Below are positions 54,912 through 64,000 of a stretch of DNA of 64,000 nucleotides, one piece after another. The stretch covers positions 6,609 through 70,608 of the forward strand of contig JAAYCL010000008.1 in the NCBI GenBank assembly GCA_012729785.1, in the 5' to 3' direction. The position numbers were made by a program, and so were the translations under genes. The notes beneath the pieces are model-generated. The model made no database searches. It had not been told where the DNA came from and saw nothing but the letters and a program-made list of their open reading frames with translations. Numbering within the stretch: the first letter of the stretch is position 1; each line of letters begins with the position of its first letter. Source of the stretch: Chlamydiota bacterium (GTDB lineage: Bacteria > Auribacterota > Tritonobacteria > UBA1439).

Positions 54912-55406
54912 TCACTCCGCTCCCGGCGTCGGCGCCCCGGCCGCGGCCGGCGCCGCCTTCGGCGGCGCGGCGATCCGCGCCGTGCCCTTCGCCGCTTCGA
55001 TCTTCTTCCGCGCGGAGACGCTGAACGCGTCCGCGACGACATCGAGGCGCTTCGTGAGCGCCCCCTCGCCGAGGATCTTCACGCCGTCGCAGGACCGCCG
55101 CACGATGCCCCGGGCGGAGAGGGCCTTGGCGTCCACCACGCTCCCCTCGTCGAAGACGTCCAGGCGCCCGACGTTGACCGTTTCGACGCGGGGCCGCCGC
55201 GGGGCGCGGAATCCGCGCTTGGGGATCCGGCGGATGAGCGGCATCTGGCCGCCCTCGAAGCCGGGCCTGATCTTCGCCCCCGACCGCGCCTTCTGCCCCT
55301 TGTGGCCGCGGCAGCTCGTCTTGCCGTGGCCGGAACCGGGCCCCCGGCCCCTGCGCTTGGCGCCGCGCCGCGCCCCCTCGTTGTTTTTCAGCTCGTGCAG
55401 TCTCAC
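54912..55406 (-). CDS. rplO: Ribosomal protein L15
   Basis: 164 residues. The glycine/arginine-rich start (RRGRGPGSGHGKTSCRGHKGQKARSG) and PLIRRIPKRGF are typical L15. It has a proline/alanine-rich C-terminal extension (APPKAAPAAAGAPTPGAE). It begins 1 base after rpsE with no rpmD between. Confidence 0.96.
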   Translation of the reverse strand: MRLHELKNNEGARRGAKRRGRGPGSGHGKTSCRGHKGQKARSGAKIRPGFEGGQMPLIRRIPKRGFRAPRRPRVETVNVGRLDVFDEGSVVDAKALSARGIVRRSCDGVKILGEGALTKRLDVVADAFSVSARKKIEAAKGTARIAAPPKAAPAAAGAPTPGAE

Positions 55407-55407
55407 C

Positions 55408-55929
55408 CTAGTCGAGCCCCCTTCCCGCCATCACCTGCGCGCGCGTCCGCAGCCCCTCGAGCGCGACGAACGTCGCCTTCACGACGTTGATCGGGTTCTT
55501 CGATTTCAGCGACTTCGCAAGGACGTCCTTCACCCCCGCGAGGTCGAGGACGATCCGCATGCCGCCGCCGGCGATGATGCCGGTGCCGGGGGCCGCGGGT
55601 TTCAGGAGCACGCGCGCCCCCCCGAAGACACCGATCGTCTCGTGGGGGATGGTGGCGCCGCGGCGCTGGACGTGCACGATCCTCCGCCGCGAGCCCTCGG
55701 AGCCTTTCTTGATCGCCTCGGCGATCTCGTTGGCCTTCCCGAAGCCGTAGCCGATGTTCCCTTCCCGGTCGCCGCATACGACGAGGGCGCTGAAGCTGAA
55801 GCGGCGCCCGCCCTTGACCACCTTGGCGCAGCGGTTGATGCTCACGACCTTTTCCTGTATCTCTCCGGGGGCCGCTTCGCGGTTCCTGTCGCGATCCCGG
55901 TTCCTGTCCCGATCCCGTCTCTCCGCCAC
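55408..55929 (-). CDS. rpsE: Ribosomal protein S5
   Basis: 173 residues from a GTG at 55929 with AAGGAGGAG upstream. The S5 core is intact ([52 protein letters not shown]). The N-terminus has an unusual Arg-Asp-Asn repeat ([14 protein letters not shown]). S5 lies at the mRNA entrance of the 30S subunit and affects accuracy. Confidence 0.96.
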
Positions 55930-56003
55930 CGACTCCTCCTTGCGGGCGCAACGCCGTCGCCGAGGCACCCGTCCCTGGTTCACGGCCGTTCCCGGCCGGC
56001 GCG

Positions 56004-61601: not shown

Positions 61602-62456
61602 TTACGCCTTGCCGCTTCCTCCGCGCCGACGCTTCTTCACCCTCGCCTTGACGACGTGGCGCGCCGGCTTTCTCCTCGAGCGGGTCTTGCCGCCCTTCGC
61701 GAGCACCCCCGTGGGCGAACACGGATGCCGCCCGCCGGAGGACCGCCCCTCTCCGCCGCCCATCGGATGATCGACCGGGTTCTGCGCCACGCCGCGCACC
61801 TTCGGGCGCCGCCCGAGCCAGCGGCTGCGCCCCGCCTTGCCGAGGCGCACCGCCTCGTGCTCGCTGTTCCCGACCTGCCCGACGACGGCCATGCAGCGCA
61901 CGTTGACGAGCCGCACCTCCCCGGAGGGGAGGCGCACGTGCGCGTAGGCGCCGTCGCGCGACAGGAGCTCCGCGCCGTTGCCCGCCCCGCGGGCGAGGAT
62001 CCCCCCGGCGCCGGGGCGCAGCTCGACGCTGTGGATCTGCGTCCCCAGCGGGATCTCGGCGAGCGGCAGCGCGTTGCCGATCCGCGGCTCGATGTTCTGG
62101 CCCGACACGACCGTGTCCCCGACCCCGAGCCCGACCGGCGCCAGGATGTACCGCTTCTCTCCGTCGGCGTAGTGCAGGAGGGCCAGGCGCGCCGCCCTGT
62201 TCGGGTCGTACTCGATGGCGGCGACGCGCGCGGGGATCCCCGCCTTGTTCCGCTTGAAGTCGACGATCCGGTAGCGCCGCCGGTGCCCGCCGCCGAGGTG
62301 GCGCACCATGATGCGCCCCATGAAGTTCCTGCCCGCCTTCTTCCGGACGGCGACGGTCAGGCGCTTCTCGGGGGACCGCTTCGTGATCTCCTTGAAATCG
62401 TGCCCCGTGATCCAGCGGCGGCTCGGGGTCGTGGGCCGGTATGTCTTGATTCCCAT
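61602..62456 (-). CDS. rplB: Ribosomal protein L2
   Basis: 284 residues. Begins [18 protein letters not shown] and holds [17 protein letters not shown] and the conserved [24 protein letters not shown] loop that reaches the peptidyl-transferase centre, essential for activity. An intergenic repeat lies upstream toward rplW. Confidence 0.97.
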
Positions 62457-62490
62457 AATCTCACTCCACCTTTACACGCTCTCTGCGTCG

Positions 62491-62568
62491 CCACGGATCG
62501 ACGCGGATCGTCACGGACAGATTCTGCATTCCCTGCTCTTCACGCATCCGTGAAGATCCGTGGCAACG
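62491..62568. repeat. CGGAT-rich imperfect inverted repeat, copy 2
   Basis: The left arm (62491-62526) begins CCACGGATCGACGCGGATCG and ends CAGATTCTG. The right arm (62541-62568) is its approximate inverse (ATCCGTGAAGATCCGTGG). It is related to the element at 23834-23923. It fills the 122-base gap between rplW and rplB inside the ribosomal operon, where most neighbours are nearly touching. Confidence 0.65.
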
Positions 62569-62578
62569 ATACCGTACA

Positions 62579-62863
62579 TCAGGTCGCGTACTCGATCGTG
62601 TCGCCCTCGCGCAGCGTCACGATCGCCTTCTTCCAATCGGGGGTCTTGCCGACCTGCCACCGCACCCGTTTCAGCTTGCCCCGCATCGTGATCGTGTTGA
62701 CCTTCGTCACCTTCACCTTGAAGGCGGTCTCCACGGCCTTTCTGATCTCTATCTTGTTCGCCCGGATGTCCACCGCGAAGGCGTACCGGCCGCCCTCGCC
62801 GGCCCCGCCGCCCGCCTTCTCGGTGATCACCGGCCCCTTGATGATGCCGCGCCTGTCGCTCAT
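62579..62863 (-). CDS. rplW: Ribosomal protein L23
   Basis: 94 residues. [33 protein letters not shown] and [15 protein letters not shown] are L23 signatures. It is the docking site for trigger factor and SRP at the exit tunnel. It follows rplD by 1 base. Confidence 0.95.
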
Positions 62864-62864
62864 G

Positions 62865-63491
62865 TCAGAGTCGCTCCTGCAAAAACTCGAACTCCCCCCG
62901 CGCCATCACGACGGCCCCGTGCGCCATCAACAGCCAGGCGCTCAAGGCGCCGCGCTGCGCAACGGAGGCGCCGGGGATGTTCCGGGTCGCCCTCTCGACG
63001 GCCGGATCCGGCGCGCCCAGGACGATCAGCGGGGCGTTCGCCGCGCCGATCGTCTTCAGCCACCCCGCCATCTCCTTCGTCTTGGCGGGACGGGCGACCG
63101 CGTCCACGAGCACGATCTCGCCCCCCCGCACCTTGTCCGCGAACGCCGCCGCGAGCGCCTTGCGCCGCAGCGCCTTGGGGATCGAACGGCCGAAATCCCG
63201 CGGCTTGGGACCGAACGTGGCCCCGCCGCCGCGCCAGACCGGGGAACGGCGGTACCCCGCCCGCGCGCGGCCGGTCCCCTTCTGCCGCCACGGCTTCTTC
63301 CCCGATCCCGCCACCTCGCCCTTGGTGAGGGTCGAGGCGGTCCCCGCCCGCCGGTTGCGCCGGTAGCCGGTGATCACATCGTGCAGCAGCTGCGGGTTCG
63401 CGCGCGCCGTCCGAAGCTTCTCGGAAACCGCGACCTCGCCCGCCGCGCGCCCGTGTTTGTCCACTACCTTGAGTGTCTCCATCGTCGTCAC
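62865..63491 (-). CDS. rplD: Ribosomal protein L4
   Basis: 208 residues from a GTG at 63491 with GGGAG upstream; the in-frame ATG at 63482 is the alternative. [33 protein letters not shown] and [19 protein letters not shown] are L4 signatures. Its loop reaches the exit tunnel. It follows rpsJ by only 22 bases, so the expected rplC between them is absent. Confidence 0.96.
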
Positions 63492-63513
63492 GCGTCTCCC
63501 GTCGGTTGCCCCC

Positions 63514-63822
63514 TCACAGCCTGATCTTGATGTCCACCCCGGCGGGCAGGTTGAGCTTCTTCAGCTCGTCGATCGTCTTCGCGGTCGGGTCGAGGATATC
63601 GAGCAACCGCTTGTGCGTCCTGATCTCGAACTGTTCCCGCGACTTCTTGTCCACGTGGGGGGAGCGCAGCACCGTGTAGCGCTCGATCTCCGTGGGGAGC
63701 GGGATGGGACCGCACAGCTTGGCCCCGGTCCTCTTGGCCGTCTCGACGATCTCCTCGGCTGACTGGTCGAGCACCCTGTGGTCGTACGCCTTCAGCCGTA
63801 TCCGAATCCTCTGTTTCGCCAT
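63514..63822 (-). CDS. rpsJ: Ribosomal protein S10
   Basis: 102 residues. [50 protein letters not shown] and [12 protein letters not shown] are standard S10. It also serves as NusE in transcription antitermination. It lies 65 bases after tuf. Confidence 0.97.
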
Positions 63823-63887
63823 CGCTCCCTCGTCTGTCCTGTCCTTCTCTTCGGGCCTTCAGGCGCCGCCGCGGCCCGAGATCCGCC

Positions 63888-64000
63888 TTATTTGATGATC
63901 TCGCTGACCCTTCCCGCGCCCACCGTCCGGCCGCCCTCGCGCACCGCGAACCGCAGCCCCTTCTCCATCGCGATCGGCGTGATCAGCTCGCACTCCACCG
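63888..64000 (-). CDS. tuf: Elongation factor Tu, C-terminal end (cut by the window edge)
   Basis: The last 37 codons are inside the window and read [20 protein letters not shown], then [12 protein letters not shown] and a TAA stop, the C-terminal end of EF-Tu domain III. EF-Tu carries aminoacyl-tRNA to the ribosome. A tuf gene just ahead of rpsJ is the usual str-S10 junction. Confidence 0.95.

Follow-up and report, generated by a model that had tools for sequence, protein, structure and literature searches.

An intact gene outside the S10 operon encodes ribosomal protein L3 where rplC is missing from its usual site

The S10 operon in the window, by which we mean the whole stretch of 64,000 nucleotides that was analysed, has no rplC, and in the genome to which it belongs uL3 is encoded by a single intact gene that is not linked to the operon. 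We consider it probable, with real room for doubt, that a horizontally acquired L3 took the place of the native rplC.

The rpsJ-rplD junction and the L3 gene of the genome

Few bacterial gene orders are conserved as strongly as the S10 cluster, and L3 is essential, a core ribosomal protein that assembles early. According to the sequence and the ORF coordinates, only a short gap separates rpsJ from rplD in the window, with no rplC between them, where the canonical S10 operon has it. The features around the junction are the following:

63880..64000, minus strand: 3' end of tuf (EF-Tu), truncated at the window edge (tblastn with EF-Tu on L032, which overlaps the window end)
63514..63822, minus strand: rpsJ, ribosomal protein S10 (PF00338, E 2.6e-40)
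63492..63513, minus strand: rpsJ-rplD spacer, the usual site of rplC, 22 bp, with a GGGAG Shine-Dalgarno-like stretch for rplD in its sequence
62865..63491, minus strand: rplD, ribosomal protein L4 (PF00573, E 4.2e-53), start at GTG 63491 or ATG 63482
62579..62863, minus strand: rplW, ribosomal protein L23 (PF00276, E 4.4e-32)
61602..62456, minus strand: rplB, ribosomal protein L2 (PF03947 and PF00181)

The full order is tuf (partial)-rpsJ-(no rplC)-rplD-rplW-rplB-rpsS-rplV-rpsC-rplP-rpmC-rpsQ-rplN-rplX-rplE-rpsZ-rpsH-rplF-rplR-rpsE-rplO-secY. The initial annotation had reported the missing rplC, with coordinates and a 22-bp gap that proved exact, and a canonical order in the rest of the operon. 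The latter holds as far as secY, except that rpmD (L30) is likewise missing between rpsE and rplO (window 54912-55951), which overlap by 4 bp. No L3-like sequence or remnant was detected in the 64-kb window by tblastn with L3 queries from three families (best E 0.42). The rplW-rplB spacer (window 62457-62578, 122 bp) contains an imperfect inverted repeat (CCACGGATC...GATCCGTGG) that resembles a small dispersed element, the rest of the operon being tight.

The genome of the window (G000) comprises 2.59 Mb in 45 contigs and is 96.6% complete with 1.1% contamination. The initial annotation had offered relocation of L3 as one explanation and a whole-genome profile search as the way to find it. This search located a single PF00297 match, on contig C36 (155.6 kb), where an intact and unlinked gene at about 13.5-14.2 kb on the minus strand (L001:1393-2061, minus) encodes a uL3 of 222 aa. 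The protein scores 67.6 bits against PF00297 and 264 bits against TIGR03625 (curated cut-off 142.9), covering positions 1-202 of 202, and L3 chains of solved ribosomes in the PDB match its residues 5-217 with an E-value of 4.9e-63. It is thus a full-length match to bacterial uL3 as defined by TIGR03625 and departs from it in genomic location only. As in a displaced ribosomal-protein gene, the only copy lies away from the home operon, where none is left. The GC3 of the L3 gene (0.89) is similar to that of the S10 and L4 genes. A foreign or contaminant origin of C36 was ruled out by its tetranucleotide signature, which matches that of the window (r 0.97-0.98), and by the L3 tree, in which the L3s of the window's family form one clade with 100/100 support.

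For the comparison with relatives that the initial annotation had also called for, the window's family is designated f1 (G000-G004), while f2, f4-f8, f11 and f14 are other families of its phylum. The L3-less junction was seen in nine other genomes, three of them in the same family (G002, G003 and G004), the others being G010, G012, G017, G020, G024 and G027. With G000, S10 and L4 thus adjoin directly in 10 genomes of families f1, f6, f8, f11 and f14, and L3 lies between them in 20 genomes of other families of the phylum. The S10-L4 gap without L3 measures 206 bp in G002, 20 bp in G003 and 39 bp in G004, with L3 on another contig in each, and in G001 the contig that carries L3 measures 3.9 kb and shows the same gene upstream of it as G000 does. 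S10 and L4 are also directly joined in those named genomes with an orphan L3, that is, one outside the S10 operon, whose junction is readable (Myxococcota, Tectomicrobia, a Syntrophorhabdaceae and others), and the 13 named orphan-L3 genomes that were searched have one L3 copy each. The 206-bp spacer of G002 (L035) contains an inverted-repeat-like element (GAGCCAGGAGTTAG...) at the place where rplC is missing.

These junctions bear on the other explanation raised at the outset, an assembly deletion. A deletion or binning artefact would mean that rplC really lies between rpsJ and rplD, or that the L3 contig is a contaminant, and the 45 contigs of the G000 assembly might invite such a suspicion. 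The clean junction, however, is repeated in the nine other genomes, L3 in f1 has a conserved context outside the operon, C36 matches the window in composition and the f1 L3s form a single clade. Because independent genomes share the junction and carry L3 outside the operon, a misassembly at this site is refuted, and we regard an artefact of either kind as next to impossible.

Context, promoter and recurrence of the orphan gene

In f1, L3 lies downstream of a pyrimidine-degradation cluster encoding a PreT-like oxidoreductase, PreA, a dihydropyrimidinase and a class III aminotransferase, all on the same strand. This cluster is conserved upstream of L3 in G000, G002, G003 and G004, and in most of them it is preceded by a carbon-nitrogen hydrolase. 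Directly before L3, three f1 genomes have a gene for an exported-looking protein of 150-166 aa with no assigned family, and in G000 a TPR gene follows the cluster on the opposite strand. The conserved upstream neighbours point to one relocation in the f1 ancestor and, as part of the best explanation, we infer that the displaced state was fixed before f1 radiated.

Comparison of the leaders showed TTGC(A/G)N, a spacer of exactly 16 bp and TATAAT upstream of L3 in all five f1 members, with 9-36 nt between its end and the L3 start, within flanking DNA that has diverged. The G000 version, TTGCAG-16 bp-TATAAT, was missed by a generic promoter scan because TTGCAG falls under the hexamer threshold of the scan; it was the direct five-genome comparison that revealed the site. 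Across the 2.59 Mb of the genome the pattern has two matches, of which the L3 site is one, and a reversed control pattern has one. Upstream promoter-like scores were higher for orphan (n=26) than for in-operon (n=109) L3s, with a Mann-Whitney p of ~1e-6 that is only indicative, the sequences being non-independent. Judged by sequence, a sigma70-type promoter of its own most likely drives transcription of L3 in f1. In G003 (L036, upstream of L3 at 9934) only 9 nt separate the end of TATAAT from the first L3 ATG; therefore, the message may be leaderless there or start at the second ATG.

Orphan L3s were found in five of the 16 typable families of the window's phylum. In a concatenated ribosomal-protein tree without L3, the phylum forms one clade in which the orphan families are scattered: f1 stands by the in-operon family f2, f6 by f4, f8 and f11 by f7, and f14 by f5. 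This scatter requires several events, and parsimony suggests about four separate displacements. Outside the phylum, L3 was located away from the S10 operon in all 26 decidable genomes of the Myxococcota sample (the phylum of G071, Myxococcaceae) and in 3/30 of the Desulfobacterota sample (the phylum of G059, Syntrophorhabdaceae). At L052 10001-11925 (Syntrophorhabdaceae) the orphan L3 is followed on the same strand by ORFs that by eye are 6-pyruvoyltetrahydropterin-synthase-like and GTP-cyclohydrolase-like.

A gene of the RlmE type adjoins the orphan L3 in f6 (G010, L041) and f14 (G024, L047), both scoring below the strict NCBIfam cut-off for RlmE. These are the only two of 44 genomes of the phylum in which a blast-type search, which a diverged RlmE could escape, found rlmE; the same type of search detected none in f1. 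In the Myxococcota sample, rlmE lies within ~1.4 kb downstream and on the same strand of 11 of the 26 orphan L3s. At many Myxococcota loci the two genes adjoin, with rlmE downstream on the same strand:

L085, L093, L103, L113, L114, L116, L186, L190-L193, L196, L199, L201, L204, L205 and L213: rlmE directly beside orphan rplC

The arrangement departs from that of Myxococcota in f6, f14 and one Desulfobacterota genome (L244), and this variation between lineages does not support a simple block transfer. The central loop of L3 reaches the same region of the 23S rRNA as U2552 of the A-loop. RlmE, as the enzyme is named in NCBIfam, methylates U2552 of the 23S rRNA, a site given in PMC12123411. We hypothesize a functional tie between the L3 loop and RlmE.

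Origin of the orphan L3

The L3s of the phylum differ in their central loop. The motif RH[GS]GS is present in 8/8 orphan L3s from five families and in none of 22 in-operon L3s from 11 families; counted per family (5/5 vs 0/11), Fisher's test gives p 2.3e-4 for a motif that was noticed after the alignment had been viewed. Hence the orphan gene is also of a sequence type distinct from that of its in-operon relatives. Outside the phylum, 27 of 30 L3s from the Myxococcota sample have the motif, as do the three Desulfobacterota orphans and some of the deltaproteobacterial L3s that lie in the operon. These frequencies derive from the samples of the phylum, of Myxococcota and of Desulfobacterota that the Pfam model had retrieved; the named orphan loci were left out, as the scan peptide SHGTHEYF biases them to the RHGGS type. 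A 2-aa insertion is carried by all 51 orphan L3s and is absent from 21 of 31 in-operon L3s.

In the displacement that we favour, horizontal transfer would have placed outside the operon an L3 with the RHGGS loop that is typical of Myxococcota and deltaproteobacterial lineages, and this gene would have acquired, or carried with it, its own promoter. The redundant native rplC would then have been lost from the S10 operon, and like events would have occurred separately in other families of the phylum. The restriction of RH[GS]GS to orphans within the phylum, the scatter of the orphan families and the finding of rlmE only beside orphan L3s argue for this course, as do the tree costs: a single L3 clade of all 51 orphans can be enforced for 0.5 lnL, whereas forcing the window's phylum together costs 24 lnL (AU p 0.17 and 0.22). 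Keeping the Desulfobacterota orphans with the in-operon ones costs 34 log-likelihood units. On the other side, the AU tests on this short gene gave no significant rejection of vertical descent (p 0.09-0.49), and the 2-aa insertion occurs in some in-operon families as well. The identity-based affinity of L3 to the phylum versus deltaproteobacteria, considered as a test of transfer, was rejected as uninformative, since the value for f1 (-5.2) is equalled by that of its in-operon sister f2 (-5.4).

As the AU tests reject neither displacement nor a native translocation, the latter is the main rival. Here the f1 family's own rplC would have moved, or been duplicated with subsequent deletion of the operon copy, and the RHGGS loop would be ancestral or convergent. 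On the L3 tree, one clade of f1 and f2 costs only 0.4-4.9 lnL (AU p 0.37 and 0.49); the corresponding clade of f8, f11 and f7 gives an AU p of 0.09. The native GC3 of the gene, the affinity profile that f1 shares with f2 and the insertion state, which agrees between orphan and in-operon sister in three of four pairs (f6/f4, f14/f5 and f8-f11/f7), are also in line with it. The fourth pair disagrees, f1 having the insertion and f2 lacking it, and the presence of RH[GS]GS in every orphan family and in no in-operon family would demand repeated convergence tied to relocation. We therefore take native translocation seriously but think it the less probable course. An ancient paralogy, in which operon-type and orphan-type L3s coexisted in the ancestors of several phyla and each lineage kept one, would agree with the low cost of uniting orphans of several phyla and with the mere four changes of location needed on the L3 tree. 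However, the 44 genomes of the window's phylum included none with two L3s, and in the Myxococcota sample each of the 179 genomes in which L3 was matched had a single match; we judge such a history very improbable. Displacement by an acquired gene could also be cast more widely: a mobile, promoter-bearing lineage of RHGGS orphan L3s, often linked to rlmE, may have repeatedly replaced the S10-operon copy of this core ribosomal protein near the peptidyl-transferase centre across several phyla, with loop type and U2552 methylation perhaps co-adapted. We offer this broader picture only tentatively and would sooner doubt it than accept it.

Significance and comparison with known systems

That rplC has left the operon repeatedly, and in the Myxococcota sample apparently as a rule, shows that the dosage of L3 can be uncoupled from the S10 operon. 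A further consequence is that L3 may mislead in concatenated ribosomal-protein trees, and the recurrent pairing with rlmE offers a way to test for a link between the central loop of L3 and methylation of the A-loop. A literature search among papers open without subscription found none on rplC outside the S10 operon or on an rplC-rlmE linkage.

In a survey of 40 universal genes in 191 genomes, zero displacements were counted for L3 (COG0087) (PMC3151239). The mechanism proposed here is the same as the orthologous gene displacement of that study, in which a transferred ortholog replaces the native copy. Genes of the S10-spc-alpha clusters are reported to be translocated in Borrelia and Treponema (PMC2481283), and these cases are alike in that cluster members lie elsewhere, but they concern another phylum, the passage that describes them does not name rplC, and in Leptospira rplC is in place. 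The closest likeness is to S4 (rpsD): entire lineages, including all Alphaproteobacteria, have their only copy away from the alpha operon, a state that has been attributed to HGT (PMC3087516). In both cases a universal single-copy ribosomal protein is found off its cluster, in another sequence type and lineage-wide. The S4 types, in contrast, are split by a zinc-binding motif and those of L3 by the central loop, and the transfer signal for L3 is non-significant. We conclude that the L3 case is that of a displaced ribosomal-protein gene, ordinary in kind but of note because of the gene affected and because it recurs.
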